From assembly GCA_037951105.1 (NCBI GenBank), contig JBAMJV010010616.1:34176-98175 (forward strand): a stretch of 64,000 nucleotides of DNA, written 5' to 3'. Each line of letters starts with the position of its first letter. The first letter of the stretch is position 1. Below the pieces are notes generated by a model, which did not search any database, had not been told where the DNA came from, and worked only from the letters and a program-made list of their open reading frames with translations. Both the position numbers and the translations under genes were made by a program. Origin of the DNA: Echinarachnius parma (taxonomy: Eukaryota > Echinodermata > Echinoidea > Clypeasteroida > Echinarachniidae). This document shows, piece by piece, positions 1,962 through 56,316 of this stretch.

Positions 1962-2045
1962 CTTTTCTCCTGAGAAAGACAATTAGACTGGCGACAGACA
2001 GTACGGTGATAAACGCCACTGGAATCATTATCGAGGCTGTGAGTA
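1962..2045 (-). CDS. Gene A transmembrane exon (Ig-family receptor)
   Basis: An 84-bp phase 1-1 exon. The acceptor is ccaattatag before TACTCACAG and the donor is AAAAG followed by GTTAGT. It encodes about 28 residues with the hydrophobic run IPVAFITVLSVASLIVF followed by basic LRRK, a single-pass stop-transfer segment. Joining from the constant-like exon at 11936-12307 keeps the frame (phase 1 to phase 1). The layout matches the transmembrane exons at 35173-35253 and 56227-56316, which end in the same GTTAGT donor. The cytoplasmic exon expected downstream would lie beyond the left edge of the window. The assignment is inferred from splice sites and hydropathy; no transcript is available. Confidence 0.72.
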
Positions 2046-2292
2046 CTATAATTGGAAATAAAATTAGTTATGGATTTAAGATTCAAGATTGATACGTCGG
2101 TGTTGTATATGCATTGGTCACGTGGCGGTTTATAACATTATCATGCTAAGAAAAACTATATTCCGTTTCCAACCCACCTGCCTAGCATTGAGATACGAAT
2201 TGAAGGGGGCAATGTTGATATAATTATGAAGAATTATGCCAATTATGAAAATCAGTAAGTTATACGATATTACAAGTTCTCAGGACAATATA

Positions 2293-2562
2293 AAGAAGAA
2301 GAAGAAGAAGAGGAGGAAGAAGAAGAAGTGGAGGAAGAAGAAGAAGAAGAAGAAGAAGAAGAAGAAGAAGAAGAAGAAGAAGAAGAAGAAGAAGAAGAAG
2401 AAGAAGAAGAAGAAGAAGAAGAAGAAGAAGAAGAAGAAGAAGAAGAAGAAGAAGAAGAAGAAGAAGAAGAAGAAGAAGAAGAAGAAGAAGAAGAAGAGAA
2501 GAAAAAGAAAAAGAAGAAGAAGAAGAAGAAGAAGAAGAGGAAGAGGAAGACAAAAGAAGAAG
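2293..2562. repeat. (GAA)n / (TTC)n trinucleotide tract, about 270 bp
   Basis: Long almost pure purine run of GAA on the plus strand, with GAG and GTG interruptions near both ends. It lies in a gene A intron about 250 bp upstream (in transcription sense) of the transmembrane exon, and is pyrimidine-rich on the transcribed strand's sense. It produces spurious Glu/Lys/Leu/Ser open frames. Such mirror-symmetric purine tracts can form triplex DNA. Confidence 0.95.
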
Positions 2563-2705
2563 ATAGTGAACAATCAAAAACTGATTGCCTATAATATAAA
2601 GACATTCAATCATGTTAAACATCTTAAAGGGAAAACCGCCCCAAAATTATTTTCTAATTTATGAAAGTGAAACGAATTAGTGGTTCATTTGATAACACAA
2701 AATTA

Positions 2706-2945
2706 CCGAGCATGATGGCTTAGGGGTTAGAGTGTCTGCCTCATGCACGGGAGCCCCCGGGTTCGAACCCAGACCGGGTCATACCAAAGACTTTAAAAAT
2801 GGTACCGTCTGCCAGGCGCTTGGCATGTATAGAATGCATAAGGGAAAGTTAATCACAAGAGTTACCAGAGGATTGGCCCCCTTCTGTAGCTTTCGCTACA
2901 TTTATTAGACGTGTGGCCGAGGGATAATGAATCATATAAAGTCGT
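2706..2945 (+). mobile_element. tRNA-derived SINE
   Basis: The head contains an A-box (TGGCTTAGGGG, 2716-2726) and a B-box (GGTTCGAACCC, 2760-2770), about 70 bp in total and tRNA-sized. It is followed by a non-tRNA body with GGTACCGTCTGCCAGGCGCT, as expected of a tRNA-derived SINE. The body recalls echinoderm SINEs, but that is a memory-based impression. No tail or target-site duplication could be fixed with certainty. Confidence 0.65.
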
Positions 2946-3189
2946 CGCCTTATGTGCCAACATTTGCACGGGAAGAACTGAAAATTTTTAACTTTTTAAA
3001 CAAAAAGTTCAGAAAAAATTGATTTCCTACAATCATGTGCTCATGGTTCTGCATTGGAACACTTTAAGTTTTACCTGGGAACTAATTCCTCGGTGACACC
3101 TTTGCTTATTTTGCTTACGCATTACTGCGTATTCCCGACGCTGACATGGGCAGTCATACCCAATGAAACGCAATGAAACTTGCTCACTA

Positions 3190-3540
3190 CGTACTCAATA
3201 CGCGGACTAGTCCGCATTGGTTGGTCGCTCGCTAGTTTTTGCAAACAAACGCAAACCTAGGTCAAATTGCCTACGAACCTACGAGCAACCATTGAATGCA
3301 AGCAAAAGCGAGCGAATGCAGGTATACGCAATCATGCGCATCTCTTTTGGAGCGCGTATCACTGCCTATACATGCGTTTCCAAACGATTTACCTCGCTTT
3401 AGCTCGTTATCGCTCGCACGATTGCGCGTATTTTTCCGATGTTGCTCGCACACCGCTCGCAGCAGCACGAACCGTTGCGCTTGCCGCTCGCTACGCTGCG
3501 AGTCTGGCTCGTACGCCATTCGCTTTAAATCGCAGTCGAT
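3190..3540. repeat. Degenerate array of GCTCG/GAGC and GCAAACG-type motifs
   Basis: Short related words (TCGCTCGC, ACGAGCAA, GCGAGCGAATG, GCTCGTTATCGCTCG) recur with inverted polarity between the left and right parts. This matches the short-motif arrays at 7200-7560. It abuts the foldback element that begins at 3549. Apparent open frames here are repeat artefacts. Confidence 0.45.
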
Positions 3541-3558
3541 GGTTCAAGGGTGACACGA

Positions 3559-4022
3559 CATATGCTCCGCCGACATATGCTCCGCCGACAATTGCTCCGA
3601 AAAATGCGACAATTGCTCCGCGACAAATGCTCCGCGATACTTGCTCCGCCGACATTTGCTCCGACGACAATTGCTCCGCCGACAAATGCTCCGCCGACAT
3701 TTGCTCCGCCGACAAATGCTTCACCGACATTTGCTCCGCCGACAAATGCTCCGCCGACATTTGCTCCGCCGGCAAATGCTCCGCCGACATTTGCTCCGCC
3801 GACAATTGCTCCGCCGACAAATGCTCCGAAGATGCGATAATTGCTCCGCGACATTTGCTCCGCCGACAATTACTCCGCCGACAAATTCTCCGAAGATGCG
3901 ACAATTGCTCCGCCGAAAATGCTTCGAAGGTATGCGACAATTGCTTAGCCGACAATTGTTCCGCCGAAATATGCTCCGGAGATACGACATTTGCTCCGGT
4001 GACAATTGCTCCGCAGAAAAAT
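3559..4022 (-). repeat. 15-bp tandem array, left arm of foldback copy 1
   Basis: About 30 units reading CCGACAAATGCTCCG on the plus strand. The core alternates between CAAATG, CATTTG and CAATTG. Some units carry an extra GAAGATGCG-type insertion. The 15-bp period keeps all frames open, which creates long false open frames. Confidence 0.95.
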
Positions 4023-4051
4023 ATGCTCTGAAGATGACAGTACTTCAAATG

Positions 4052-4480
4052 TGACCATACACCACAAAACGACCAATAAGTCGGGAAAAAGTATTGTGCT
4101 GATTTTCACATGACATTACAGTAGAAGTCATTACCTTTAAAATGATATATAATTTGACATATTCGGACCAAGTAACCCTCTGAAAATGAGCGCCAAAGAT
4201 TTGGAAAATGACTGAAGCAGTTTTAAAACAAGGGAGAAATGGGCCATTTCAAAGATTGGCGTCCATTCAAGCGCTGTAATCTGATAATTAATATTCGATG
4301 AAAAAACATATTTAAACATGATTTCTGACTATCAAAATTTCACAGAAGGTAGATTAAAATACTTTCATTCAGGACATACACAAATCTGGAATCTCATATT
4401 TTGAACCAAACTTGACTATTTCAGCTAATAACAGAGAAACTATCTCAGCGACATAACGGTCGTTTTGTGGTGTAAGGTCA
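4052..4480. mobile_element. Nested 429-bp TIR element (non-autonomous DNA transposon)
   Basis: The two 23-bp termini are inverted with one mismatch: the left begins TGACCATACACCACAAAACG and the right, on the other strand, begins TGACCTTACACCACAAAACG. A 6-bp direct repeat CAAATG flanks it (4046-4051 and 4481-4486). The paralogous foldback copy has a single CATTTG (43963-43968, opposite strand) and no insert, so the empty site is present in this window. Extending the TIR by one base would make the duplication 4 bp (AAAT). No coding capacity; superfamily not assigned. Confidence 0.88.
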
Positions 4481-4486
4481 CAAATG

Positions 4487-5840
4487 GTCCAAAAAACAAC
4501 ATATGTTCCTCAACCATAATTGTTCCACCGACATTTACTCCGCTGAAGATTAAACTCTGGAATGAATTCTCAAGTACCTTTGGTATGAAGTGCGCTTTTA
4601 TATGTTATGCGAATCTCTTGTGAAATTGGAGTACAATCGATTCAGTAACCATCGATTCATTCAAATATTTTATTTGGCTGGTTTGTTTGTTTCACGTTTC
4701 TTTATACAGGGTGGGGGGGGGGGGGGGGGGCAGTCAAGCCCAGCGTTGTAAGGATGCGTGACCCTGCAGCCTGCATCTAGTAGCAGAAGGGGAGGCGCAA
4801 TAACACACAACACTGGCTTTAGTTTTTGATGTTACATTGGGGTTCGACTGGAGTCGAACCACGGACCCTCATAGTATCCGAAAATGCTGTGATGAATAGT
4901 ATACTGTTCCAAGCAATCATCAAGCGAAGGGCATGATACTGGTGTTAAGATCGATCATGAATAGAAAAAAGAAAAGTCTTTATAATCACTGCATTTGTAT
5001 TACTCAGACTCTTTATGAATCAAGAAATTGTTCCGCATGAGTTCAAAATTTATCCACGTTTTATCAAAATTCAAAGAACGTTATTTTCACCCACTGTTAC
5101 ATTTTCGGAGTTCCAATTTTGTTTAGATTTGTTCATCGTTCACTGAACAACGAGGGCCCAATTTGTGACACTTCTAAACGCCCCCCCCCCCCCCCCCCCC
5201 CCCACCCCGTAAACGATTAAGGCTGCCTTATTGTCCAACCGAAAAGCACAAACTTCCAATGCATTTTGCATTCGTATAAACGGAAGGATTGGCAGGAAGT
5301 AGCAGAAAATTGAAATTCAATAATCTAAGGAATTGAGGGGTCCTCTTACCTCCACAGTGAGGTAGGATGGACACTTCACCCCTTTAGTGACTATGACGTC
5401 ATATTCCATAAAAAGCAATATGTGATCAATTTTATTGTTAATATGTGAAGAATAGATTGTCTTCTAGACGATGACTTGTGATCTTTATTTAAAGGGGTAG
5501 TACAGTTTTGCTACTTAAGGCTGAACTTTAGTAACCAACCCTGGACAGTTACTTGATAAACTAATGGTTATAACTCCACCATGCTCGAAAGGTATACAAA
5601 ATTACAAACGACTTAGTAAAACGCCTGTTATCATTCAAAAAGAGCCATTCAAACACAAGAGGGCGCTTTTCTTAAAAGGCATTGGTTTCAACCATTTTCA
5701 TACAAAATTATGCATGTGGTGTTTTATTGGAATGATGATTAGATAGAGAGATCATCAACAACTATTCCAAAAATGATTTTGAAAATTTTTGAAAAAGTGC
5801 AAGCATTTTAAAAATATTTTGTTGAAAAAAAATCATCTAA
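4487..5840. other. Internal domain of foldback copy 1
   Basis: Non-array core of the element. It contains a G run (4713-4730), a tRNA-like B-box on the minus strand inside a small palindrome (GGTTCGACTGGAGTCGAACC, 4852-4871), a C run (5181-5203), and from 5490 an incorporated piece of the TTAA MITE family X. Nearly all of it recurs inverted at 42600-43960. It has no gene. Confidence 0.75.
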
Positions 5841-5852
5841 TTATTTGGGCAT

Positions 5853-6212
5853 TTGGCGGCGGAGCAAATGTCGGCGGAGCAAATGTCGCGGAGCAATTAT
5901 CGGCGGAGCAAATGTCGCGGAGCAATTGTCGCAGCTTCGGAGCAATTGTCGGCGGAGCAAATGTCGGCGGAGCATTTGTCGGCGGAGCAAATGTCGGCGG
6001 AGCATTTGTCGGCGGAGCAATTGTCGGCGGAGCAAATGTCGGCGGAGCATTTGTCGGCGGAGCAAATGTCGGCGGAGCATTTGTCGGCGGAGCAATTGTC
6101 GGCGGAGCATTTGTCGGCGGAGCAAATATCGCGGAGCATTTGTCGCGGAGCATTTGTCGCATTTTTCGGAGCAAATGTCGGCGGAGCATATGTCGGCGGA
6201 GCATATGTCATG
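5853..6212 (+). repeat. 15-bp tandem array, right arm of foldback copy 1
   Basis: About 23 units of GGCGGAGCAAATGTC and its AAA/TTT/ATT core variants, in inverted orientation relative to the left arm. The outermost units carry a CATATG core at both ends of the element. Confidence 0.95.
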
Positions 6213-7875: not shown

Positions 7876-8790
7876 TGTAACAATTTCTGACGTTTTGACG
7901 GACAGAATCGTTATGGGATGAGGATGATGATAATATAATGGATGTCTGGATGGCCGAGGTTATATAGTTCTAAATCACAATCATAATCACATTCATTCTG
8001 TAAAACACGTTCCACAAGCTTCGATGTAAAGATAACAGTTGGCGAGAGTTATTCGGTTATTCGTTTATTCTTCCATGAACAACTTCGTACAATTCCATGA
8101 CGAACAGGACTAACTATAACTTACTAACTTCTAACAGGACTAACTTCGTACTGTAACTTAATAACTGACTAAGAATGAACTAACAACTGCACAAACTCCA
8201 GCTCCATGATTATCACTCTCCAGACTTAGACTTAGACTTAGTCTCAACGTATATGAACTGACCCCGAATGAGAGAGAGGTCGAGGTTATATAGGCTAGTC
8301 CAGTTTACTGACATAACCCTGGACATTGACTTCCAGTCTGAGCTAGGACAAAGAATGACATCTATAAAGACACCGACTAAGAGGGAACTTAATGCATCAA
8401 AGAACAAACTCTAGCGACTTGACATTACAATGGACTTACTTCTTAGAAATACAGTAATCCCTAAACATTACAGAGCTTAAGTTTAAGCTAACGGCAACAT
8501 CTGAGAGAAGGGTTAACAATACTACTTAGAAATACACCTATAAACATTGCAGGGATTTAAGATTAAGCTTAAAACAGGGTAACGCAGATTTAATAACATC
8601 AAAAAGCATCACCGCTCTTGAGAGGGGTGAACGGGTAAACAATGGCATTATAAGGTGAGGGTTAAGTGGGAACCAATTCACACGGTTTAAGTGAGTGTAT
8701 AAGTTGCTGGTTGGTATACAGCGCAATAACAAAGAAGTAACAGACTTTATACATGGGGACTATTAAATGCATGTATCTACATTCGTAACA
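7876..8790 (-). repeat. 3' LTR (in element orientation)
   Basis: 915 bp, plus-strand ends TGTAACAATT and ATTCGTAACA. By eye it is identical to 10986-11900, with no indels over its length. Confidence 0.93.
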
Positions 8791-8806
8791 ATACCTCCCC
8801 CTTTGA
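8791..8806 (-). promoter_or_regulatory. Polypurine tract of LTR retrotransposon
   Basis: On the minus strand AAAGGGGGAGGTAT lies directly before the LTR start TGTTACG. This is the expected position of the plus-strand primer of an LTR retrotransposon. Confidence 0.75.
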
Positions 8807-10985: not shown

Positions 10986-11900
10986 TGTAACAATTTCTGA
11001 CGTTTTGACGGACAGAATCGTTATGGGATGAGGATGATGATAATATAATGGATGTCTGGATGGCCGAGGTTATATAGTTCTAAATCACAATCATAATCAC
11101 ATTCATTCTGTAAAACACGTTCCACAAGCTTCGATGTAAAGATAACAGTTGGCGAGAGTTATTCGGTTATTCGTTTATTCTTCCATGAACAACTTCGTAC
11201 AATTCCATGACGAACAGGACTAACTATAACTTACTAACTTCTAACAGGACTAACTTCGTACTGTAACTTAATAACTGACTAAGAATGAACTAACAACTGC
11301 ACAAACTCCAGCTCCATGATTATCACTCTCCAGACTTAGACTTAGACTTAGTCTCAACGTATATGAACTGACCCCGAATGAGAGAGAGGTCGAGGTTATA
11401 TAGGCTAGTCCAGTTTACTGACATAACCCTGGACATTGACTTCCAGTCTGAGCTAGGACAAAGAATGACATCTATAAAGACACCGACTAAGAGGGAACTT
11501 AATGCATCAAAGAACAAACTCTAGCGACTTGACATTACAATGGACTTACTTCTTAGAAATACAGTAATCCCTAAACATTACAGAGCTTAAGTTTAAGCTA
11601 ACGGCAACATCTGAGAGAAGGGTTAACAATACTACTTAGAAATACACCTATAAACATTGCAGGGATTTAAGATTAAGCTTAAAACAGGGTAACGCAGATT
11701 TAATAACATCAAAAAGCATCACCGCTCTTGAGAGGGGTGAACGGGTAAACAATGGCATTATAAGGTGAGGGTTAAGTGGGAACCAATTCACACGGTTTAA
11801 GTGAGTGTATAAGTTGCTGGTTGGTATACAGCGCAATAACAAAGAAGTAACAGACTTTATACATGGGGACTATTAAATGCATGTATCTACATTCGTAACA
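10986..11900 (-). repeat. 5' LTR (in element orientation)
   Basis: Partner of 7876-8790. It is the promoter-bearing LTR if the element is transcribed on the minus strand, the same strand as the host gene. Confidence 0.93.
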
Positions 11901-11935
11901 GTATATTGAGGAGTATTTAAAAAGTTTAAATTTAC

Positions 11936-18400: not shown

Positions 18401-20207
18401 ATAATGCAAATTATGGGCATTGTCTTCGCGGGCGTGCCCGCGGCTTGTCATGCGTGGCAGAGGGGGCCGATGCGCTGTGCAAATTGCATAGAGCACGTGC
18501 TCTTTCGGTCGTGCGACCAAGTCGTGGGTGCGTCGGCGGGGAAAATCTATGCATGAATCAGTTGGTAGCTCGTGCAATGTGCATACCGCTTGTATAGTAA
18601 ACAATGTCGGTTAATTAGGGTAACCATTGTTATTTTTCAACACCTGATGGCTACCCTGCAAGTGTTTTCACGATCGCATAAATTTATGTATGAATTAGTT
18701 TGTAGCTTGACCAATGTGCATACCGCTTGCAATGAACAATGTCGGGTTTTTCGCCGTGACTTCACGCCTCACGGTAATGTAGCCTACATTGTCTAGACAG
18801 GTGAGGATTTCTATAATTGTGTTGGTAGATCTATATTTGGTTCTAGCATAGTATATTGTTATTATAATGTGAACTATGTAGTCAATTAAGGTAACTATTG
18901 TTATTTGTTAACACTAGGCATTTGGCTTGCCGACGGGGGTCGTGAGTCGTGTGCATGCTGTCTGCACACATGGCTATTGTAGCCTACATGAGCAATTTCA
19001 AGTCAAATTCTGGGGTTTGGAATGTGGGTTATCTTTTTTTTTTCTTTGGTAAAAAAAGGATTATCTTGATTAGTCTCTGCTACGGGCGCGCAGCTTCGGG
19101 GTGGTATTTAATACTATGGAGGTTAACTCGCATACTTTGTTAGGAAAGTGTGAACGGGTTCGGAGTGGGTTATATTAGGCTATCTACTCAATTGTATTGA
19201 TGAGTTTGACCTATTCAGTATCAAACTATGTAGAATAATTGATTCTTGCTTTTGAAATTCATTGTAATGGGTTTCAGAGGTGGGGGCTTAGCAATCTGGA
19301 AATAAATGGTTATTGGAATGTACGGGGTATGTTTGGGTCGAGTGGTTTGTAAATAGTTGATGTGCGCACTGGTACGGATGGGCAGGGGATGACATGCGTT
19401 TGGTTTGCCTGGCCACTTTAATGCTAGTACACGTTCTGGTTCACTAATTTATAAAGGTGTATATTATTTTATTTGAATTAGTTTATTTGCGTAGGAATTC
19501 ACGGCACAGCTTCATTAGGGCACGTTCTGGGTCACTAAATTCATGTAAATGTTGTTCGTTTTTTTTTTTTTTTTTTTTTTAAATTGGTATTGGTCCTTTT
19601 TTAAGGGACTATAGTATGTTAGCGTAGGAATTTATGGTAGAGGTTCATTCATGGGTGGGCTATATAATTTATGTTAGTGCCCGAGTGTACGTTCTGTTCA
19701 TTAAATTTATGTAAATGTTGTTTATTCTGTTAGTCCTTTTTTTTTTTTTTAAGGGTCTATAGTATTGTCGCGTAGGAATTCATGGCACGGAATCCATACA
19801 GTGTTTAAAGTATAATACTGTAGTATGACATGGGACTAGTGGACATTATTTGTAAATAACTCATGCATGGGCTGCGTCGGGGAAGACAGGGTGGGCAATT
19901 CTTTCTTCTTTTTTTTTAAGCTGAAAAAAAAGGGGGAGGAGGAGGAGGAGGAGCTGCGAGATAGCAGTCTGTTTTTGGTTTATTTTTTTTACTTGATCGT
20001 CATGTCGTATGGTGGGTTATATTTGTTATATGGTTGGGTTGGGAAGGGTGTGTGTGTGTTGTGTACGGGTTGGGGTCTGCTCACAATCAATATGTTTGTT
20101 GATACGTTAGTTAGGTTTCGTTATAGTTATTTTTTTGGTATAAACATGCTCACGGGGGAAACAGATTATGAGGTCAATTTAAAGACTTTGTATACATGTA
20201 AAATAAA
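18401..20207 (+). repeat. Tandem units, right block, and presumed LINE 5' region
   Basis: 18401-18900 resumes the tandem unit interrupted by the DIRS element and includes another unit start near 18551. 19420-19810 holds three diverged repeats of about 190 bp sharing ACGTTCTG...TTCATGTAAATGTTG and T runs. No ORF1-like protein was recognised before the LINE endonuclease frame. The open frame at 19867-20214 is low-complexity Phe/Glu. Confidence 0.5.
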
Positions 20208-23200
20208 ATGGTGAATTTTTCTTGGATTACTTTAAATGTTAGAGGGTTACGGAATAAGGATAAAAGAACACGCATTTTTGAATGGTGTAAATGTAAAGGA
20301 AGTGATATTTCTTTTTTACAGGAAACATATAGTACTATAGAAGTAGAAGAACAGTGGAAAAAGGAATGCGGCGGGCCAATGTTCTTTAGCCATGGGTCAA
20401 ACCACAGTAGAGGTGTTCTTATTTTATTTTCTCCTCTTTTAGATTCTAAACGGGATGCAGTTGTAATAGATGAAGAAGGGAGGTACATTATATTTAAAGG
20501 GGAAATACAAGGGGTTAAATTTTTGTTGGGAAATGTGTATTTCCCTACAAGAGATAAAGTACAATTACAGATTGATTTTTTGAATAAGGTAGACAAAGGT
20601 ATTTGTGAAGTTTTTGATAAGGATTATTCAGTAATATTAGGGGGAGATTTTAATACTGTAATGGAAGGGGGCATGGATTATGAAGGGCCAAACACAGTAT
20701 TAAAATCTAGGTTTATTGAGGTATTAATAAGATTTTTGAATAAATATGATTTAGAAGATATATGGAGGAAAAGGAATCCTAATGCTAGACAGTTTACTTT
20801 TAGACAAAGGTCGCCCTTAGTCCAAAGTCGTTTAGATTATTGGTTTATTTCATGTAGTTTAGACAAATTAGTAAATAATTGTGAAATTTTGGTATCGATA
20901 ACACCGGATCATTCGGGTATTAAATTGCAATTTCAGCATATAGTGGATAAGTTTGTTTTTGGAAAATCGTATTGGAAATGTAATAATAGTTTATGTATGG
21001 ATAAATATTTTGTTGAGGGGATGCATGACCTAGGATTTCGAATAAATTAGTATTTCGGGATTTTTAAAAAATGAAAATGAGGGAATACGCCATGAAATAT
21101 TCACGTGAAAAGGCGAAATTAAGGAAACTTGAAATAGAGACGTTGAAGACTGATATTAAGGATTTAGAAAATCAGTTAGTCGAAGGCGCAACTAGATTTG
21201 TTATTGATAGTATTAAATTGAAAAAAGAAAAGTTGAATAAATTGTATGATTTTTCTAGACAGGGCATTAAAGTTCGTTCTAGAGCAGCTTGGTTTGAAGA
21301 AGGGGAGAATAATATTCAGTATTTTGAACAATTGTTAAAAGTAAATAAGAGGAAAAGTGTCATTAGAGAAGTGTATAAGGAAAATGGAGACATTACTAGA
21401 GATAAAAATGACATTTTAAAATAGATAAAGAAATGTTATGAAAAATTATATTCTTTGAGGAATAATAGTGGTCAAAATAATGGTTTATTTTTTGATGATA
21501 TTTTAAAGTTAAGTGAACAGAATAAAGAATTATGTGAAGGTAAAATGACGAAAGATGAGTGTTTTAAAGTTTTGAAAGAAATGAAATGGAATAAATCCCC
21601 TGGAAATGATGGTTTTACGGTGGAATTTTATGAAACATTTTGGCCCATATTAGGGGATTTGTTGGTAGAAGTATTGAATGAAACATTTGTAAGGGGGGAA
21701 TTGACGGTATCTCAAAAACAAGGGACTATAACATTGATAGAGAAAGAGGGAAAAGATGCGACGCATATTAAAAATTATAGACCCATTACGCTGTTAAATG
21801 TAGATTACAAAATATTATCGAAGGTTTTAGCAACTAGGATTAAAAAGGTTTTAATTGAAATAATTCATTATGATCAGGTGGGATATATAAAAGACAGGAA
21901 TATTGGGGAAGCGGTTCGATTAATAGAGGATGTATTATTTTATTCTAAACATTTGGAGCAAGGACAGGGGTTTCTGGTTGCGGTAGATTTTTAAAAAGCT
22001 TTTGACTGTATCCCATCAATATTTATTGAAAGTGTTAAAATTGTTTGGTTTTGGTGATTCATTTTGTTCTTGGGTGAAAATATTATATAATGGTATAAGT
22101 AGTTGTATTATGAATGGGGGGAATTCTACTGGTTATTTTAATATAGAAAGGGGGGTCAGACAAGGTGATCCATTGTCGCCATATTTGTTTTTGGTTGCAA
22201 TAGAATTATTGGCACATGAAGTAAGGAGGGACAAAATAATTAAAGGGATACATTTTGGGGACCAGGAAATAAGACAAATATTGTATGCAGATGATATGAC
22301 AATTTTTTTGAAAGATATAGACTCTATAAGAAGGTTGCAATATATATTTGAAGAATTTGAAAAAGTAAGTTGCTTGAAAGTTAATAAGGAAAAGACACAT
22401 TTTATGTATATGGGTGAGGAAACTGGGAAACCAGATGGGCCTTTATTTGGAAAATTTGTTAAGGAAGTAAAAATTGTAGGTGTTAATTTTTCGGTCGATT
22501 TTAGATTAAAAGACGATCTAAACTATAAAGAAATATTAAGCAAAATTAAAAAGCTTTTAGGTTGGTGGAAACAACGGGATTTGACTATTATGGGTAAAAT
22601 TTATTTATTGAAAACGTATGCATTAACAAAGTTGAATTATGTTTCATCTCTCCTTGTTGTTCCCTTATGGGTTTATATAGAAGTGGAGAAAATATCGTTT
22701 GATTTTATATGGGGAGGAAAAGATCGTATAAAAAGAAAAATTATGTATCAAAATTATTATTATGGTGGAGTAAAAATGATTAATTTTGAATTATTTGTTA
22801 GAACGCAGCGGATAATGTGGGTGAAACGATTATTATATGGAGAAAGAAATTTGGGATGGAAGTTATTTTTTGATTATTACTTAAGTTCAGTGGGAGGAAG
22901 GCTAATTTTTGTATGTGATTATGAAATGCAAAAGATGAAGTTTAGTTTGAAGATTCCACCTTATTATTTGGAAATGTTGAAAGCTTGGAAAGAGAATGAT
23001 AATTTAAGGCATGCTAATGGTTGTATGAATCCAATTATTTTTAATAATAGGAACATATGTATTAAACAAAATAAGATGGTATTTGATAAAGAGTTATTCG
23101 AACGAGGGATCGTTATTTTGAATCATATTATTGATAATGGACAAGTTAAACCCGTTGCATATTTTTCAAACCATGGTATGACAGGTGAGAATTTGCTTAC

Positions 23201-23849
23201 AATAATTGATATATATCATGCGATTCCGAGCGATTGGAAAAATGAGCTAGGTTTGATACAATTTTGTGAGGTAGATTTAATTAATTATAATATAAACTTA
23301 CATATTTTGGAAAAACATTAAGTTTTAAGGATGTACCATCAAGAAAAATATATGATTACTTTATTCGAGAACTGCAAAAGTTATATGATTTACAAATAAG
23401 GGATGGACAAAATAATTATAATTATATAGATAAAGAACTAAGTGAATGTTTTTTTTAGACCACGAATAACATTAATGATAGGGAAGCAGAGAGAGTTTCA
23501 ATTTAAGTTGCTGCATGGGGCAATTTATACTAAAGAACATTTATTTAGATTTGGATTTGTTGAAGATAATTTATGTTCGTACTGTAAACAGGAAAAGGAA
23601 ACATATTCACATATATTTTTGTTTTGTTTAAATGTAAAATGGATATGGCAAGCTTTGATACAACGTTATGAGTTAGGTGAATTGAAGGACTTAATTTGGC
23701 GAGATATATTTGTTGGATTGTCGGGTAATTCAAATAGAATAAAAATGTGTAATACTATAATTTTTATGGTAAAATATATTTTATTTGTATTTAGAAAAGA
23801 GGGTGTATTACCAACCATTGATAAAATACAGAAACTCTTATTAGATTAG
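20208..23849 (+). pseudogene. LINE ORF2: apurinic-type endonuclease + reverse transcriptase + C-terminal zinc knuckle, broken
   Basis: 20208-21050 is an endonuclease domain (LNVRGLRNKDKR, FLQETY, GGDFNT, SRLDYWFIS, then TPDHSG where SDH is usual). The RT follows: GNDGF and NYRPITLLN (about 21600-21800), the motif A region near 21990, GVRQGDPLSPYLF (about 22155), and YADDMTIFL (about 22267). 23570-23640 encodes the CSYC...H...C zinc-binding pattern seen at the C-terminus of many LINE proteins. There are in-frame stops at 21422-21424 and 21992-21994 (the latter inside RT motif A). Frame changes occur near 21050-21071, 21995-22004 and 23310-23442. It is therefore not functional. The motif set fits the L1/Tx1 group; the exact clade is unresolved. 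Confidence 0.9.
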
Positions 23850-24528: not shown

Positions 24529-24882
24529 CGAAAATATCGACATCCGTTTTGTTAAATAATAATTTTCCCGTATCAATGTCAGCAACCTCACAAGAGTATA
24601 CACCTTCGTCTGATATCGCGACCTGCTTGATGATGAGAGAGAAGTAATTGGCGTCCATATCGAAATATCCTTCATCGTACCCAGGCCCACCTTTGAAGCT
24701 TGGGTTGGCAGTAAAATCGATGAAAATAATGATACTCCGTGTCTGGTTTGTAATGAGTTTATACCAAGCAACGGAGTAAATGTCCCCATCGACTCTGCAT
24801 GGTAGCTCAGCTCTGCTGCCCTTTTCCAGAAGCGATGTCGGGTCGGTGTCGACGATAGCTTGTTCACTTGAATGACGAAGAA
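24529..24882 (-). CDS. Gene A V/I-like Ig domain exon
   Basis: A 354-bp phase 1-1 exon, open over 118 codons, with acceptor ttgccattgcag and donor TTCG followed by GTAAGC. It has the Ig hallmarks: B-strand cysteine in AELPCRV, C-strand tryptophan in YSVAWYK, and the F-strand pattern ISDEGVYSC with its cysteine. It ends in a G-strand-like KTDVDIF. Sequons include NQT and NKT. It joins in frame to the signal exon (25407-25488) and to the constant-like exon (11936-12307). It is clearly homologous to the broken exon at 38878-39232: both share VDTDPT, LLE-G-RAELPCRV and SLIIK. It acts presumably as the ligand-binding ectodomain of a surface receptor; the ligand is unknown. Confidence 0.85.
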
Positions 24883-27247: not shown

Positions 27248-27251
27248 TTAA

Positions 27252-27788: not shown

Positions 27789-27879
27789 TTAACAGTTTCA
27801 TAATAATAATGCCCAATAATTTCTTTTTTTACAACTTCTTATTTCGAACTGTAGTGGTTCTCTTTGACTTATACCATGT

Positions 27880-29345: not shown

Positions 29346-29358
29346 AGAATGCCCCCAG

Positions 29359-30135: not shown

Positions 30136-30139
30136 TTAA

Positions 30140-33511: not shown

Positions 33512-33795
33512 TCACAAGTGAGTGAATTGAACATCACTAATGTTGTTATTAAGAAATACATGCAGACTCTCGCTTTCTCGTTTCAGCTCTTCAACCCTGT
33601 TCTCCAGTTCAATTATTTTCTCATTATGTTCAGTATCACTTCCTTTCAAGATCATCAGCTGTGCCTTCAATTCCTCTACAGTGACCTGGGTAGCTCTGAG
33701 TTTGCTTTTTATCTCATCACGGTCGGTCTTCCTCATGCCAATGTTAATATATGTCGTTTCTGGTTCCGTCTTTCCTTGATGCCGAGTTTCGTTAC
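33512..33795 (-). CDS. Gene B terminal cytoplasmic exon: ITSM-like motif and coiled coil
   Basis: 284 bp, acceptor TTTGTTGCAG, ending at a TGA stop. It encodes 93 residues after the junction glycine. Near the start, ETTYINIG contains TxYxx(I), the form of an immunoreceptor tyrosine-based switch motif, and YIN also fits a Grb2-type YxN site. The rest is strongly charged with leucine heptads (VEELKAQLMILKG, IIELENRVEELKRESESL), predicting a parallel coiled coil. Together with the upstream transmembrane exon it forms a cytoplasmic tail that could be phosphorylated and oligomerise. Gene C has a similar coiled-coil tail without the tyrosine motif. Function is inferred from motifs only. Confidence 0.78.
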
Positions 33796-35172: not shown

Positions 35173-35253
35173 CTGTATGAAGCCTTTTCCATCTGAACCA
35201 AACGATAATACCGGTGGTAAGTGCTATTCCCAACGCCAGGACAACTACAGACA
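35173..35253 (-). CDS. Gene B transmembrane exon
   Basis: 81 bp, phase 1-1, acceptor TTATCCTCAG and donor ACAG followed by GTTAGT. It encodes SVVVLALGIALTTGIIVWF and then basic RWKRLH, a single-pass membrane segment with a positive inner flank. It joins to the terminal exon (GGT glycine split across the junction). It is equivalent to 1962-2045 and 56227-56316, and it shares the HTG end with the gene C exon. Confidence 0.8.
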
Positions 35254-38877: not shown

Positions 38878-39232
38878 CAAAAATATTGACATCAGTTCTG
38901 TTTTGAAGGAACCTTCCTGTATCAAAATCAGCAACCTCAGACGTACATGCCTTCGTCAGATATATTCACATCCTTGATGATGAGAGAGAAGTTCCCGTCC
39001 ATATCGCAAGAGCCATCTTCGTATCCAGGCCCACCTTTCTCGCCAGGGTTGGCAAAACGATCCATGAAAATTGTGAGATTTCCTGTCTGGTCTGGATTAG
39101 TGCGTTTGGACCAACTAACCGAGTAAATGTCTCCATAGACTCTACATGGCAGCTCAGCTCTGGTGCCCCTTTCCAGAAGCGCTGTGGGGTCGGTGTCGAC
39201 GATAACTTGTCCGCTCGAGTGAGAATGACATA
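38878..39232 (-). pseudogene. Gene B V/I-like Ig exon with 2-bp deletion at the F-strand cysteine
   Basis: Acceptor ttttcag before TATGTCATTC, donor TTTTTG followed by GTAAGC, same phase pattern as 24529-24882. It encodes VDTDPTALLERGTRAELPC, then YSVSWSKR and SLIIKDVNISDEGMY, and then hits TGA (38940-38942 region). Compared with the gene A exon, the bases between the tyrosine codon and GAGGTTGCTGA are four instead of six. This removes the canonical second cysteine and shifts the frame. The exon is 355 bp, whereas 357 would keep phase. Either gene B is a pseudogene or polymorphic null, or the deletion is an assembly error. Flanking splice sites are intact. Confidence 0.82.
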
Positions 39233-42365: not shown

Positions 42366-42600
42366 CCATGACATATGCTCCGCCGACATTTGCTCCGCAA
42401 AATGCGACAAATGCTCAGCGACAAATGCTCCGCGATATTTGCTCCGCCGACAAATGCTCCGCCGACAATTGCTCCGCCGACAAATGCTCCGCCGACATTT
42501 GCTCCGCCGACAATTGCTCCGCGACATTTGCTCCGCCGATAATTGCTCCGCGACATTTGCTCCGCCGACATTTGCTCCGCCGCCAAATGCTCCGCAGACA
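42366..42600 (-). repeat. 15-bp tandem array, left arm of foldback copy 2
   Basis: About 15 units of CCGACAAATGCTCCG and variants. It is shorter than the corresponding arm of copy 1 (5853-6212). Confidence 0.95.
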
Positions 42601-43984
42601 AATGCCCAAATAATTAGATGATTTTTTTTCAACAAAATATTTTTAAAATGCTTGCACTTTTTCAAAAATTTTCAAAATCATTTTTGGAATAGTTGTTGAT
42701 GATCTCTCTATCTAATCGTCATTCCAATAAAACACCACATGCATAATTTTGTATGAAAATGGTTGAAACCAATGCCTTTTAAGAAAAGCGCCCTCTTGTG
42801 TTTAAATGACTCTTTTTGAATGATAACAGGCGTTTTACTAAGTCGTTTGTAATTTTGTATACCTTTCGAGCATGGTGGAGTTATAACCATTAGTTTATCA
42901 AGTAACTGTCCAGGGTTGGTTACTAAAGTTCAGCCTTAAGTAGCAAAACTGTACTACCCCTTTAAATAAAGATCACATCGTCTAGAAGACAATCTATTCT
43001 TCACATATTAACAATAAAATTGATCACATATTGCTTTTTATGGAATATGATGTCATAGTCACTAAAGGGGTGAAGTGTCCATCTTACCTCACTGTGGAGG
43101 TAAGAGGACCCCTCAATTCCTTAGATTATTGAATTTCAATTTTCTGCTACTTCCTGCCAATCCTTCCGTTTATACGAATGCAAAATGCATTGGAAGTTTG
43201 TGCTTTTCTGTTGGACAATAAGGCAGCCTTAATCGTTTACGGGGTGGGGGGGGGGGGGGGGGCGTTTAGAAGTGTCACAAATTGGGCCCTCGTTGTTCAG
43301 TGAACGATGAACAAATCTAAACAAAATTGGAACTCCGAAAATTTAACAGTGGGTGAAAATAACGTTCTTTGAATTTTGATAAAACGTGGATAAATTTTGA
43401 ACTCATGCGGAACAATTTCTTGATTCATAAAGAGTCTGAGTAATACAAATGCAGTGATTATAAAGACTTTTCTTTTTTCTATTCATGATCGATCTTAACA
43501 CCAGTATCATGCCCTTCGCTTGATGATTGCTTGGAACAGTATACTATTCATCACAGCATTTTCGGATACTATGAGGGTCCGTGGTTCGACTCCAGTCGAA
43601 CCCCAATGTAACATCAAAAACTAAAGCCAGTGTTGTGTGTTATTGCGCCTCCCCTTCTGCTACTAGATGCAGGCTGCAGGGTCACGCATCCTTACAACAC
43701 TGGGCTTGACTGCCCCCCCCCCCCCCCCCACCCCCCACCCTGTATAAAGAAACGTGAAACAAACAAACCAGCCAAATAAAATATTTGAATGAATCGATGG
43801 TTACTGAATCGATTGTACTCCAATTTCACAAGAGATTCGCATAACATATAAAAGCGCACTTCATACCAAAGGTACTTGAGAATTCATTCCAGAGTTTAAT
43901 CTTCAGCGGAGTAAATGTCGGTGGAACAATTATGGTTGAGGAACATATGTTGTTTTTTGGACCATTTGAAGTACTGTCATCTTC

Positions 43985-44475
43985 AGAGCATAGATTTCTG
44001 CGGAGCAATTGTCACCGGAGCAAATGTCGTATCTCCGGAGCATATTTCGGCGGAACAATTGTCGGCTAAGCAATTGTCGCATATTCGAAGCATTTTCGGC
44101 GGAGCAATTGTCGCATCTTCGGAGCATTTGTCGGCGGAGTAATTGTCGGCGGAGCAAATGTCGGCGGAGCAATTGTCGGCGGAGCAAATGTCGGCGGAGC
44201 AATTGTCGCATCTTCGGAGCATTTGTCGGCGGAGCAATTGTCGGCGGAGCAAATGTCGGCGGAGCATTTGTCGGCGGAGCAAATGTCGGCGGAGCATTAG
44301 TCGGCGGAGCAAATGTCGGTGGAGCATTTGTCGGCGGAGCAAATGTCGGCGGAGCATTTGTCGGCGGAGCAATTATCGTCGGAGCAAATGTCGGCGGAGC
44401 AAGTATCGCGGAGCATTTGTCGCGGAGAAATTGTCGCATTTTTCGGAGCAATTGTCGGCGGAGCATATGTCGTGT
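43985..44475 (+). repeat. 15-bp tandem array, right arm of foldback copy 2
   Basis: About 31 units of GGCGGAGCAAATGTC and variants, including the GCATCTTCGGAG-type irregular units also present in copy 1 left arm. Confidence 0.95.
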
Positions 44476-44765: not shown

Positions 44766-44811
44766 CAATTGACATCAGAAAAAGCACCAAAAACGAAGTT
44801 GTTTGAGCCAT
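44766..44811 (-). CDS. Gene B signal-peptide exon
   Basis: 46 coding bases ending in phase 1 (TCAATTG followed by GTAAGT, a near-perfect donor). The start ATG has an ideal context (ACCATGG). MAQTTSFLVLFLMSI is a classic signal-peptide core. Joining to the acceptor at 39232 gives VCHSHSSGQVIVD, so cleavage near the Ser-rich junction is likely. An in-frame ATG 34 codons upstream is disfavoured because it would bury the signal peptide. Confidence 0.78.
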
Positions 44812-48325: not shown

Positions 48326-48476
48326 TACATGCGAGTCTACATGTAATCATATCATTTTACTCTTTCATGTACCACCGCACTATGCGCTTTAAATAGTCCT
48401 GAATTCTGAAAACGATTTTCATATCTTCGTCATATCTTCGTCACTAAAATATGACACTGTACTTAAAGGGATATTT

Positions 48477-49016
48477 GAATGTTGGTAGAGAGGGCGCTAC
48501 ATACAATGATTTTTGTGAGATAATGAAAAACTGAGTGAAAAATGTTAAAGAGCACCATATTTTAAAGCCAGGATAAACTTTATTTGATCAAAATCGGTTC
48601 AAAAACGGCTGAAATATCCATAATCATAGTCAATTGTAATAAATGTGGGGCCCCACACTTATTCGATAATTTTGAACCAGCCGTTAAAAATTTAAAAAAA
48701 TGTTTCCTCTTTTCAAAAAGTAACATTTAATATTTAAATAGTTGTTGGTTATTTCTCTATCTAATCACTATTTCAACAAATAATCACATGCACAATATTG
48801 TATTCAAAATGGTTGAAACCGATGAGTGTTTAGAGAGCGCCCTTTTACGTTTTAACGGCTCTTTTTGAATGATAATATGATCTTTACTAAGTCATTTGTA
48901 ATCTTGTGTTCCCTTCTAGAATAATTATTAGTTTGTAGTCTAATGATGCAGGTTTTGGTTACTAAAATTCAGTTTCACCAAAACATTACTCTCCTTACCA
49001 GAACTCAACTATCCAT
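48477..49016. mobile_element. TTAA-flanked MITE, family X, third nesting level
   Basis: 540 bp with TTAA at 48473-48476 and 49017-49020. It lies inside the TAA-flanked element. Its flanks (TCTTCGTCACTAAAATATGAC and TTTTAGTGACGGAGATATGA) are themselves inverted, so it landed near the centre of a host palindrome. Confidence 0.85.
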
Positions 49017-49020
49017 TTAA

Positions 49021-49990
49021 GGAATAGCGACTTGCGAAAACATATTTTAGTGACGGAGATATGACGTAGATACAATTTTAACATAATTTTAACTTAAAGT
49101 GGTTTTCAGAATACACCCCACTAGTCTTCAATTTTTCCACTTTTGCAAGCCAAAATTCAAAAGTTGCGAGGTTATTGTCTTACATGAAAGGAAATGTCAT
49201 TTAATAGCATGCCTGAAAAAATTAGGGCTTGAAATCTCTTTTTCGTGGAGTTATAGACCTAAAACTGAATAAACTGAGGGACGTCGGTTAATTAGGTACA
49301 TACGTATTTTCGGCCGGTGAGTAAGTTCGTACATAGATTTCACGGAGTGCCAGATCGGTATGCATGACCCCTACGTGAACCGCGCTAGCTACGTGACTCG
49401 CGCATAAGTACTAATGTGTGAGCGTTTACCAAGCAAAATACCCAAACATCGCTTAAACTGACTACATGTAATTATATATTCTTTCTTTTTGAGATCTTTT
49501 TCCGTGACATACGTTAACAAATGTCGGCTTCACAATACCTTTACGAGAATTAGTACTATATTGTTGTAATATTATGCTAAATCAGTTGAACTCCTTTATT
49601 GACCGATATATAGTTTAAATGGAGGGACGCATTCGTTTTTCATTCGTAGAATCCAAATTAGAGGGCTGTTCGCTCTGATTTTTTTTTTGCTTGTTACATT
49701 GATCCCCATCCGTCAACTGAAAGCTGTTCAGACGTTTTGTAAAAGTGGACCTGTCCCTTTAAAGACTCTTCATTAAAAACAAAGAATAAGGTACAAGGAA
49801 AGATCAGAGTAAATTCAGTTAAAACTACATTGTATTAGGCTTGATTTACTTGGCACATCATGAATTTCTTTCTCAGGTGACAAATCATACAAACAAGGCA
49901 ATTACCGTAATATTTCTTGCCCGCTTGCGCACTTTTGGTTACAAACAAATGCAAGGTTGTGTATAAATTATCAAACATTATAAAGTCCTG
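49021..49990. other. Interior of nested element, no gene
   Basis: AT-rich sequence between the MITE and the right GC-rich arm. No frame or motif recognised. Confidence 0.5.
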
Positions 49991-51933: not shown

Positions 51934-52223
51934 CTATGCACAAGGCATATTGTTATTCCCATTTTTAAAAGTTTTTTCAAGTTCTTGTATTACGGCATGT
52001 TTACGATCTATACTCATAGAAACTCTTTTCCCAAGTTTAGTTATTTCTTTCTTATTGTCAGCTTCATTTTGTTTTAAGAGGTCTATGTCTTTCTCAAGTT
52101 GTTTTATTTTTGTTTCGATTTCTTCAAGTTCGATGTGAATGTCAGCATTTTTACGGAAATATCTTATTTTTTTTAGGCGGACTTGTCCATTAGACGCAGT
52201 TCTGTCATTCATTTCCCCTGCAT
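51934..52223 (-). CDS. Gene C terminal cytoplasmic coiled-coil exon
   Basis: 290 bp, acceptor TATATTTTCAG, ending in a TAG stop. It encodes 95 residues after a split aspartate. It starts AGEMNDRTASNG and then has a basic patch VRLKKIRYFRKN. A coiled coil follows (IELEEIETKIKQLEKDIDLL, KKEITKLGKRV, VIQELEKTF) and it ends NNNMPCA. It matches the terminal exon of gene B in position, phase and coiled-coil character but lacks the TxYxxI motif. It joins in frame to 56227-56316. Interpreted as the cytoplasmic tail of the third receptor; no transcript evidence. Confidence 0.75.
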
Positions 52224-53174
52224 CTGAAAATATAAATTATTAGAAAAAGGAAAATTCAGTTATTTTGAAACATTCACACACCGTAATTAAAATTGTTAGT
52301 CAATGGCTTATTCTATATCCCAGTTTGCTATGAAGGTAAATAGAATTTGGTAATATCAGTTGTAAGACGTAATTGCGTATTGATAATGTAGAACCTTGTT
52401 ATTTTGTATTGTTTATTTGTATCAAACTCTTTAATTCGTGGGATCCACTATTTACAAGCGTTGCTTCATAGTAGATCCGTTCATTTTTACTTCAATTATC
52501 ATATTTTGTAAACAAATGTTATTTCGTATTTTTGTTGCATTGATTATTCAGTTTATGTTACATTATTATAAATTGTACATTTATTTTATGGAAATTTAAA
52601 CAATACATTTGAACTTGCAACTTGAAAGTATACTAAGAAGTATCTATTTATCTGTTTAAAGTAGAAATAAAGACAATTTAATCATTTTAAAGAAAAGAAC
52701 AAAATGCGAAATTAAAGAGCAAGGGGCCTAGAAATCAACATTGTACATTTTTTATATTCCATATTATCACATCATATGTATTAGAAAACCAAATATTTTA
52801 AAATCTATCTCAGAATCGGAGAAACACTTGTTGTACTAAAACACCAATGTTTTGATGACGTAACAAGTGGCGAACGATACCTCATTGAAAGTACACATTG
52901 TCAGTGCATGCGCGCCTGTTCTCTGTTAAACGTTCATTGTAGCCATGAATACACATCAATTTAAAAGAGTATTTTCTGCTGATTATACATCTTAGATAAT
53001 TCTAGGGCCTAGAAATGTCAAATAAACAATTGCTCTAAATATTTTAAAAGAAAAATCTGCATTGTTGCCACCTTAGCAACATTAGGCATTTAAGCATTAT
53101 ATATATAATGAGGGGATTTGCACATTTCTTAAATAAGGTCAGACGTACATTTTTATTAAAGGGATCGGAGTTAA

Positions 53175-53779
53175 AGGGATAGTTGAGTTTTGGTAGAGAG
53201 AATCCAGTTTTAGTCAGACTGAATTTTAGTAACCAAAACCTGCACCATTACATTACAAACTAATAGTTATAACTCCACCATGCTCAAAAGGAATACAAAA
53301 ATAACAAAACACTAAGTAAAAAGCTTTTTTTTTCAATGATAATAATAATAATTAGTATTATTGTTATCATTCAAAAAGAGCTGTTTAAACTAAAGACGGC
53401 GCTTTCAAAAAAATGCATTATGTTTAAACCATTTTAAATAAAACATTGTGCATGTGATGTTTTGCTGATAAAGTGATTAGATAGAGAGATAATCAACAAC
53501 TATCTAAAAACCTCTTTTGAACTTTTTTGAAAAGAGGAAACATTTTAAAACGAATTTTAACGGCTGGTTCAAAATTATCGAATACTTGTGGGGCCCCACA
53601 TTTATTACAAATGATTATGTTTATGGATATTTCAACCGTTTCTGAACCGATTTTGATCAAATAAAGTTTATTCTGCCATTCAAATGGTATGCTCTTATAA
53701 ATTTGACACTCAGTTTTTCATTATCTCACAGAAAAATTATTTTGTGTAGCGCCCTTTCTACCAAAACTCAACTATCCCT
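53175..53779. mobile_element. TTAA-flanked MITE, family X
   Basis: 605 bp with TTAA at 53171-53174 and 53780-53783. Ends AGGGATAGTTGAGTTTTGG and its inverse. The interior includes the conserved GTGGGGCCCCACA palindrome region and GATTAGATAGAGAGATAATC. It has an AATAATAAT stutter near 53340. Confidence 0.87.
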
Positions 53780-53783
53780 TTAA

Positions 53784-54362
53784 GTTTTGGTAAAGAGAGT
53801 ACAGTTTTGTCAAACTGAATTTTAGTAATCAAAATCTGCATCATTACATTACAAACCAATAGTTATAACTCCACCATGCTTGAAAGGAATAAAAGATTAA
53901 AAACGACTAAGTAAAAAGCCTGCTATAATTCAAAAAGAGCCGTTAAAACTCAAGAGGGCGCTCACTAAAAACTCATTGGTTTCAAACATTTTAAATATTA
54001 CATGGTGCATTTGATGTTTTGTTGAAATGGTGATTAGATAGAGAGATAATCAACAACAATGTTTGGTTTTTATTAAAGACCTCTTTTGTAAATTCTTTAT
54101 ATTTATACCCCATAGTATGGTGATAGCAAGCATTTTTTTTTTAACGGCTGATTCAAAATCATTGAATTTTTGTGGGGCCCCACATTTTTATTTATTACAA
54201 ATGGTTATGTTTATGTATATTTCAGCCATTTCTGAACCGATTTGGGTCCAATAAAGTTTATTCTGTCATTAAAATTGTATGCTCTTTCAAATTTGAGACT
54301 CAGTTTTTCATTATCTCACAAAGAAATTATTTTGTGTAGCGCCCTCTGTACCAAAATCTCTT
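53784..54362. mobile_element. TTAA MITE family X, adjacent decayed copy
   Basis: Starts directly after the previous copy (AAGTTTTGGTAAAGAGAG) in the same orientation and ends ...GCGCCCTCTGTACCAAAATCTCTTTAA. The terminal bases are eroded. Confidence 0.75.
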
Positions 54363-54796
54363 TAAGAAATAGGAAAAGTGATAACAATATTCATTCTAGT
54401 GTATTTTGGGGTAAGAAGTCAATTTCCAGACTTTAACACCCTGAAATCCAAGATGGCTGTCATTAATGTGCATAGTTATGAATATTATTGCATTTCAGTG
54501 GCTAAATCTATTGATAAGCAATAAGTACAGGGTATGTATTGAAGATATTTCTGCTTTGGGCAATGCATATACTCATAATTAGCATAAATTTATTTTCTAC
54601 CTAGAAATTCCTAGAAATTGAGTAAAATGCTATATTGTGAACCGGAAAGGTAAATGATGAGCGGTACCACGATTCCAAATGTCTGGGGGTTAATCTTCCG
54701 GCGGGTAATTGTCTGGGGGACGGTAAAGGTCTGGTCGCTATTGTCTGGGGGTATTCTTCCGGGGGTATTGAGCCTTCCGGGGGTATAGAGCCATTA

Positions 54797-56116
54797 TGGG
54801 CCGGTCATACTTACGGTAGCGAACGTAGTGATCCGTAGGGTAATTACTTGTGGGTCAGACGTGGTGTAAGTACGTTAAACTAGGTTAAACTACGATACAA
54901 TACGTAAAGGTACGGTGATGAGCCACATAAGAGTACAGATAAGTACGTTCAAGTACCATAAACTACGCTACACTGCGCTAGACTTCGGTAATGCGGGTGC
55001 AGCTCGCTTACGGACAGGTACGGAGTGGTACGTCTGACTACGCTTGAGTACGGTAGACTACGGAAGCAACTACGCTAGACTACGGAAGCAACTACGCTAG
55101 ACTACGCAAGACTACGCTAGACTACGCTAAACAACGTCAATATGGTATATTTATCAAATCCACAGGGAAGTATGCAGCCAGCCCGCGGTCTGGTACGGCC
55201 ATGGTGCGCTCGTGAAATTTGTCTTATTTTTTTGCTTAAACATGTCTGGAACAAAGTTGAAGGTAGTTGAACGTACTAGCATCCGTATCTACAGTACGGT
55301 ACGGTACGGTACGGTACGGATGCCGGTACGTTCAGCTACCTTCAACTACCTTCAATTACGTTCAACTCCGTTAGCCTCCACTACGTTCAACTACGTCCAC
55401 TACCGTTGTTGATCGTGGTTGAACGAAGTTGAAGGTAGTTGAACGTACTAGCCTCCGTATCGTACCGTAGTTGTCCGTGATGCTCACTTGGTATTAACTC
55501 GAGGGAGCCGTGATCTTCGATTTAATTTTTGAACATGTTCAAAAGAGCGGTACGTTAAAGGCATCCGTGATGCTAACGTACTAAACCGAAGTCTAACGTA
55601 GTATAACGCAGTACAACGTAGTCTAATGTAGTTTAACGTACTTCTTAACGTACTCAAACGTACCCTAGCGTACTCTAACGTACTATACCATGAACAGAAC
55701 TATAGCATCAGCACTCTTGGTCCAGGCATGTTTCAGCAAAAAAAAATAGACAAATTTCACAGAACTGCTATGTTTGAAAAACAAGCGCACAATGGCCGTA
55801 CCACACCACCGGCTGGCTGTTATACTCCGTGTGGAGTTGCTATTTACCGTAGTTTGACGTTCTTTAGCGTAGTCCAGCGTAGTGGCTACCGCAGTCTCTC
55901 GTACTCAAGCGTAGTCAGACGTACCACTCCGTAGTTAAGTGTACTTAAACGTACTTATCCGTACCCGTGGCCAACGACCGTATCTTAACGTAATTCAACG
56001 TAGTTCCACTTTGTTCAACTTAGTTTAACCTAGTTTAACGTACTTAAATCACTTCTGACCCACATTAAATTAACCTACGGATCACTACGTCCACTACCGT
56101 AAGAATGACCGGCCTT
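54797..56116. mobile_element. TA-flanked foldback element built from TACG-rich arrays
   Basis: 1320 bp with TA at 54795-54796 and 56117-56118. Ends TGGGCCGGTCATACTTACGG and, on the other strand, AAGGCCGGTCATTCTTACGG. The arms extend more than 100 bp (GTGATCCGTAGG, GTTAAACTAGGTTAAAC). The interior is a degenerate array of words such as CTACGCTAGACTACG and ACGTAGTNNAACGTA, inverted left against right. It has no transposase and no credible gene. Confidence 0.82.
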
Positions 56117-56226
56117 TAGTACTTTTAGTAATTCGTAAACAACAACACAATCATAATATGTATTTCTATTTTGAAAGTGAATGGAATTTTATACTACACA
56201 TTTTATAATTAGATTTGCAAACTAAC

Positions 56227-56316
56227 CTGTATGATATGTTTTCTTTCTGAGAAAGAATATAAGACAGGCGATAGACGATGTGATGATCGTCGCTGCAATC
56301 AATACCACGGGCGTAA
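56227..56316 (-). CDS. Gene C transmembrane exon
   Basis: 90 bp, phase 1-1, acceptor CCAATTATAG and donor ACAG followed by GTTAGT. It encodes VVLIAATIITSSIACLIFF and then basic LRKKTYHTG. The acceptor string and donor are the same as in gene A (1962-2045), confirming paralogy. It joins to 51934-52223 through a split Asp codon. The Ig and signal exons are not visible in 56317-64000 and probably lie beyond the right edge. Confidence 0.78.

Follow-up and report, generated by a model that had tools for sequence, protein, structure and literature searches.

Putative V-set and C1-like immunoglobulin receptor genes with coiled-coil tail exons in Echinarachnius parma

Does a stretch of echinoderm DNA in which immunoglobulin (Ig), transmembrane, and coiled-coil exons recur on one strand belong to an expanded receptor family, and what kind of receptor would that family encode? 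We addressed this for a window of 64,000 bases from Echinarachnius parma (bases 34176-98175 of contig C10594, which is 98,175 bases long), and scanned the 1.2 gigabases of the genome, in 14,790 contigs, for relatives. A first-pass annotation of the window had described eight intact exons and one broken exon, all on the minus strand with GT/AG borders and phase-1 joints, and had assigned them to a family of three genes. We re-found all nine exons, with GT/AG borders and phase-1 joints, and confirmed the three genes, although none of them is complete within the window. In mitochondrial DNA of the assembly, COX1 reads under the echinoderm code, with AAA as Asn (one AAA falls where other animals have Asn), AGA as Ser, ATA as Ile, and TGA as Trp; the genes run 16S-COX1-tRNA-Arg-ND4L-COX2, an order that fits sea urchins or sea cucumbers better than sea stars. 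Our preferred reading, to which we give a probability of about 0.58, is that these genes belong to a large echinoderm family of single-pass recognition receptors, each with a signal peptide, a V-set domain (V), a C1-like Ig domain (C), a transmembrane helix, and a terminal exon encoding a tyrosine-bearing linker and a coiled coil, and that these receptors would pair and signal through tyrosine.

An expanded family across the genome

As the annotation had proposed, the Ig receptor genes with coiled-coil tails form an expanded family, and its one-strand order is kept among the paralogues. We counted a V place as close if it had at least 57% identity across at least 80 residues, among 150 listed V places, and a C place as close if it had at least 56% identity across at least 97 residues, among 65 listed C places. 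Tail places were collected with five tail queries, with two neighbouring rows on C5246 taken as one place. A total of 34 of the 150 listed V places were close (including V1 and V2 of the window), and a split V exon on C8861 brought the count to at least 35, on 26 contigs. Close C places numbered 28 of the 65 listed, that of gene C in the window included; for 27 of these 28, a V place lay upstream on the same strand, at a V-to-C spacing, measured between match starts, with a median of 1,069 bases and a maximum of 12,590. There were 20 tail places on 14 contigs. A V or C place was present on the same contig for 18 of them; each of the 18 was on the same strand as that place, and 15 lay downstream of it. 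The family counts may be inflated by haplotype duplicates, which were kept in, and some copies are partial or contain stops.

The earlier proposal that the cluster continues past both edges of the window holds in part. On the left, the tail exon of gene C lies outside the window, but the listed matches include no additional V or C place in the 34 kilobases (kb) of contig that remain; on the right, window base 64000 is also the last base of the contig. Family members are spread over many contigs, and among the matches listed no contig has more than three close V exons. Similarly, the repeated order of signal peptide, V, C, transmembrane, and tail exons stood insofar as strand and order are kept among paralogues, whereas in the window it is a composite of partial genes.

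Splice positions and phase were also kept. We aligned the V exons of 28 of 30 loci, excluding two with stops; a phase-1 GT donor was at the same position in 27 of the 28, and a phase-1 acceptor was just upstream in 27 of the 28. For C exons, the AG was at the same position in 22 of 27 loci tested (30 were fetched, and 3 that were broken or partial were excluded), and an in-frame phase-1 GTAA or GTGA donor was found in 25 of the 27 by a looser test over a 140-base span. Because splice positions and phase are kept in paralogues elsewhere in the genome, the exon structure goes beyond chance. Chance open frames are ruled out by homology, phase, and exon order among the paralogues. Exon order, phase, mostly open frames, paralogue homology, and the V/C tree conflict described below are direct observations; the splicing itself is predicted. 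Hydropathy placed a transmembrane helix downstream of the Ig exons in the window (T1 to T3), and hydropathy only was the basis for candidate membrane exons within 1.5 kb of 8 of 30 C loci.

More distant pairs of V-set and C1-set matches, in which the C1 match was above the Pfam cut-off, were present on contigs C5340, C9943, C10204, C183, C8998, C2213, C2191, C7000, and C3402. These are assigned to a wider V-C1 superfamily in the echinoderm.

Domain identity and a proposed mode of action

The V domain is classified as V-set: all 28 aligned V exons matched the Pfam V-set model, and V1 scored 42.8-43 bits, with a cut-off of 26. The constant domain is weakly assigned as C1-like. In an alignment of C exons from 25 of 30 loci (three with stops and two partial copies were excluded), Pfam C1-set was the commonest match, with 19 of the 25 exons matching at E values up to 1 (best, 1.5e-4). 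Within the 123-residue exon, C35 and C87, the B-F cysteine pair, and P42 were invariant in all 25 sequences, and Y40 and Y85 were nearly so; the [FY]YP and YxC stretches that form the C1-set motif are therefore present. Fifteen other places in the genome exceeded the Pfam C1-set cut-off, and 10 of the 15 were downstream of a V-set match on the same strand. Against solved structures, the best matches to the C profile were CD276/B7-H3 (8e-6, a sum over two stretches with E values of 0.43 and 0.66) and SIRP-alpha (5e-5).

In the tail, a tyrosine was common to 7 of 7 aligned sequences and stood within [ST]TYxN, whose pattern is that of Grb2-type SH2 sites, in 5 of the 7. The heptad score of the tail was reached by none of 500 shuffles for gene A, C9958, and C1764, by 9 for gene B, by 13 for gene C, and by 31 for C6191. 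A shared coiled-coil tail with a tyrosine gives a concrete signalling hypothesis. The V domain would bind ligand and the C1-like domain would serve as a stalk; the cytosolic coiled coil would pair receptor chains, and pairing would bring phosphorylated linker tyrosines together as docking sites. Signalling, pairing, and an immune role are predictions from this domain content.

In structural comparison, the C domain matched both C1 domains and adhesion Ig domains, with Z scores that differed by no more than 1-2. We considered whether the products are adhesion or self-recognition receptors, in which V would bind V or another cell-surface Ig and the coiled coil would tie the receptor to scaffolds rather than to defence signalling. 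We regard this as unlikely, since family size and the V/C mosaicism described below fit diversifying recognition better; a shared fold does not show function.

Several observations weigh against a paired tyrosine-signalling receptor of the V-C1 type. The C exon of gene C scored 13.6 bits on C1-set, below the cut-off of 21. The strand-C tryptophan, a C1-set feature, is replaced by F, L, or S in the C alignment, and the C exon of gene C is without it. Two of the family's tails, those of genes A and C, are without the N of TTYxN, and the ratios of nonsynonymous to synonymous substitution (dN/dS) of the gene-B-clade tails, 0.84, 0.92, and 0.95, indicate that these are nearly unconstrained. On C6191 and C5154, the stretch from C to the tail showed no membrane exon. 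Lastly, over the 4.6 kb read downstream of the distant V-C gene on C14760, there was no membrane or tail exon; hence, the coiled-coil tail may be limited to the close branch. In that region (C14760:5300-9900), the frame of the C exon continues into a basic, amphipathic-looking end, and the product is perhaps secreted.

V-C1 membrane receptors have already been reported from sea urchins. Putative transmembrane receptors of the IgV-IgC1 type (Hibino et al. 2006; Rast et al. 2006; via PMC3308324) are likewise from an echinoderm and have an ectodomain of V-set and C1-type domains. Compared by description only, they differ in that neither a coiled-coil tail nor a tyrosine motif nor V/C exchange is mentioned in section 7 of PMC3308324. 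Among openly licensed papers, we found none that describes, for echinoderms, a V-C1 family with coiled-coil tails or an exchange of V and C, so the tail and the mosaic history are undescribed within that literature. Reviews disagree on IgC1 outside jawed vertebrates: section 9 of PMC7916673 restricts IgC1 domains to jawed vertebrates, in conflict with the sea urchin receptors of PMC3308324. With the 15 C1-set places over the cut-off and a large V/C1-like family, the origin of the V-C1 plan becomes directly testable, which bears on the origin of vertebrate immune receptors.

Butyrophilins (BTN) have an architecture of V, Ig-C, membrane helix, and coiled coil and are in this respect like the echinoderm family; a BTN3A2-like Ig-C Pfam model matched 8 of the 25 C exons at E values up to 1 (best, 0.0042). 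In contrast to butyrophilins, the coiled coil of the echinoderm family is one terminal exon. The B30.2/SPRY domain was found at 13 places on 13 contigs, none of which has a listed close V or C place. Membership among the B30.2-bearing butyrophilins is therefore ruled out, although B30.2 is also absent from many butyrophilin relatives. The B7 family and SIRP also have an ectodomain of V and C, and CD276/B7-H3 and SIRP-alpha were the top structure matches of the C profile. However, vertebrate B7 and SIRP tails are short or carry an immunoreceptor tyrosine-based inhibitory motif and are without a coiled coil, whereas the echinoderm family has a coiled-coil tail. The V domain ends in ...TDVxIF, followed by A-SPxEPY across the splice, and a J-type FGxG motif after V is absent. 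The sequence at the V end rules out V segments that require J. Unlike the T-cell receptor and major histocompatibility complex systems, then, the family has a V without a J-like motif, and no rearranging segments turned up, with no scan aimed at recombination signals. SpTransformer (Sp185/333), in the parts of its literature that we drew on, is also an echinoderm multigene family with mosaic members, but is not described there as Ig receptors of the V-C1-transmembrane-coiled-coil plan.

Probable exchange of V and C exons between genes

From the 35 V and 28 C places we chose 24 V-C pairs, two of which contain a stop codon. V and C distances over the 24 pairs were weakly correlated (r, 0.31; reached by 0 of 2000 permutations), and V-C linkage is therefore partly kept. 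We then compared V and C trees for 21 of the 24 pairs, excluding three with a V-C gap of more than 5 kb. The C tree was rejected by V data by 121.7 log units, and the V tree was rejected by C data by 277.7. With half-size V and C data sets, the difference was 72-187 units, and in controls that set the first half of an exon against the second half it was 72-83 units for V and 16-54 for C. The size of the V-half controls suggests exchange inside V too, or noise of such size. In a same-exon control, odd and even codons rejected each other's trees by 19-34 units (p, 0.003-0.008). This result speaks against exchange and weakens the p-values of the tree tests; we gave more weight to effect size and to breakpoints than to p-values.

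Breakpoints were seen in several comparisons. C9958 and C7227 were 96.3% identical from the C exon border on, for 1.9 kb, and 78.6% identical in the V exon; no alignment was obtained for the stretch directly before the C exon. Between C12791 and C9780, the C exons were identical, and identity was 97-98% across 1.3-1.8 kb; their V exons were 82-88% identical, almost nothing was alignable upstream, and the break in identity lay a few hundred nucleotides (nt) past V. For C3698 and C658, an island of windows with 95-99% identity surrounded C, and a block with 84% identity surrounded V. C7693 and C3491 had the reverse pattern, with identity of 87% around V and 73% around C, but the V-C gap of C7693 is 10 kb and its pairing is less sure. 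Because V and C trees conflict and near-identical C halves adjoin diverged V halves, germline exchange or conversion of exons between genes is likely.

The main rival to exon exchange is chimeric assembly. The tree conflict could have arisen from chimeric contigs, from unpurged haplotypes, or from wrong pairing of V with C, given an assembly in 14,790 contigs, pairs of V-set matches that are equally spaced on C2006 and C7091, as expected of haplotype copies, and some V-C pairs at least 10 kb apart. We consider an artefact of this kind improbable, since several pairs conflict, with breaks at differing places (C9958/C7227, C12791/C9780, and C3698/C658), and since pairs more than 5 kb apart were excluded from the tree test.

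Variation and selection in the two exons count against a classic recognition repertoire. Mean nucleotide distance over the 24 pairs was lower for V (0.235) than for C (0.290), and dN exceeded dS in only 1 of 267 usable V pairs (of 276), unlike in a hypervariable recognition domain. Both exons are under purifying selection (dN/dS, 0.27 for V and 0.32 for C). Strong diversifying selection on V is thus weakened as an explanation.

If V exons were exchanged between genes, receptors would be diversified without somatic rearrangement. Diversity would be encoded in the germline, through genes that duplicate, scatter, and trade their V and C halves, with the exchanges placed around the phase-1 intron between the two. 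A bolder form of this proposal is that of a germline combinatorial repertoire, in which V exons are reassorted onto C1-membrane-coiled-coil cassettes via one phase-1 intron, paired tyrosine tails signal, and the V-C1 plan, in view of the C1-set relatives in this genome, predates jawed vertebrates. We put it forward tentatively and think it doubtful as a whole.

The three genes of the window and their introns

All exons described here are on the minus strand. Gene A consists of its last two exons only, because the contig ends. Its transmembrane exon, T1 (56227..56316; 90 nt; phase 1), resembles paralogue membrane exons, and its terminal coiled-coil tail exon, with a stop (51934..52223), matched the tail profile with an E value of 7.7e-30, being itself a profile member, and had a heptad score above those of 500 of 500 shuffles.

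Gene B begins with a candidate signal-peptide exon (44766..44811), the sole match when the whole strand was scanned for hydrophobic exons that start with ATG and have a strong phase-1 donor. It continues with a frame-broken V-set exon, V2 (38878..39232; 355 nt), a transmembrane exon, T2 (35173..35253; 81 nt), and a terminal coiled-coil tail exon with a stop (33512..33795), which has relatives on C6191 and C5154. V2 has about 67% identity to V1 across 90 residues; beyond these it lacks 2 nt relative to V1, at the position of the second canonical Ig cysteine. No constant exon for gene B came out of profile scans of the window. Given the shortfall in V2 and the missing C exon, gene B is probably a pseudogene. 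A gene B relative on C6191, with 90% identity in V, has an open V exon, but its C exon is split into two parts that lie about 5.7 kb from each other.

Gene C comprises V-set exon V1 (24529..24882; 354 nt; Pfam V-set E value, 5.6e-11), with a phase-1 acceptor and donor; the constant-type, C1-like Ig exon C1 (11936..12307; 372 nt), with Ig residues and homologous C places in the genome; transmembrane exon T3 (1962..2045; 84 nt); and the tail exon outside the window (C10594:24671-24961), about 9.2-9.5 kb past the left edge. No signal-peptide exon was found for gene C in the whole-strand scan, and the 1.5 kb upstream of each of 30 V loci, V1 included, offered nothing better than low-complexity or poor candidates. 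Judging from its exons, gene C could be functional.

Recurrent splice signals had been claimed for the transmembrane exons. The donor GTTAGT is indeed present at all three, but the acceptor CCAATTATAG is present at T1 and T3 only, and that of T2 follows TTATCCTCAG.

The state of these genes raises the possibility that the window holds mostly decaying copies and that its three genes are remnants embedded in repeat-rich DNA, irrespective of the role of the family in the rest of the genome. V2 is frame broken and the C exon of gene B was not found, introns of 10-12 kb hold a long interspersed nuclear element (LINE) and many repeats, the gene-B-clade tails are near neutral, and gene A is cut off by the contig end. 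Against this, gene C has open frames with good splice sites in V1, C1, T3, and the tail exon beyond the window. We judge the relic explanation to be a serious contender, at somewhat less than even odds.

Profile scans of the window found no extra V, C, or tail exon with an E value better than 0.05, and Rfam and tRNA scans of the window gave 0 matches each. The intron between V1 and C1 of gene C holds a decayed LINE-type element on the plus strand (20202-23321), with Pfam matches to endonuclease (E value, 3.9e-10) and reverse transcriptase (4.3e-18); the block at 20001-24000 has a G+C content of 30% and a GC skew of 0.45. A 15-base minisatellite forms arrays (3555-6209 and 42370-44472) that border two inverted copies of a 1.6-kb block (4481-6085 and 43968-42370) that are 96% identical, and this block is probably a mobile element. 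A direct duplication of 918 bases (7876-8793 and 10986-11903; 99.9% identical) reaches to about 30 bases downstream of the donor of the C1 exon. A dispersed repeat of about 0.5-0.6 kb, with copies about 70-86% alike, occurs several times in introns (27248-30144, 48457-49025, 53170-54356, and 61142-61570).

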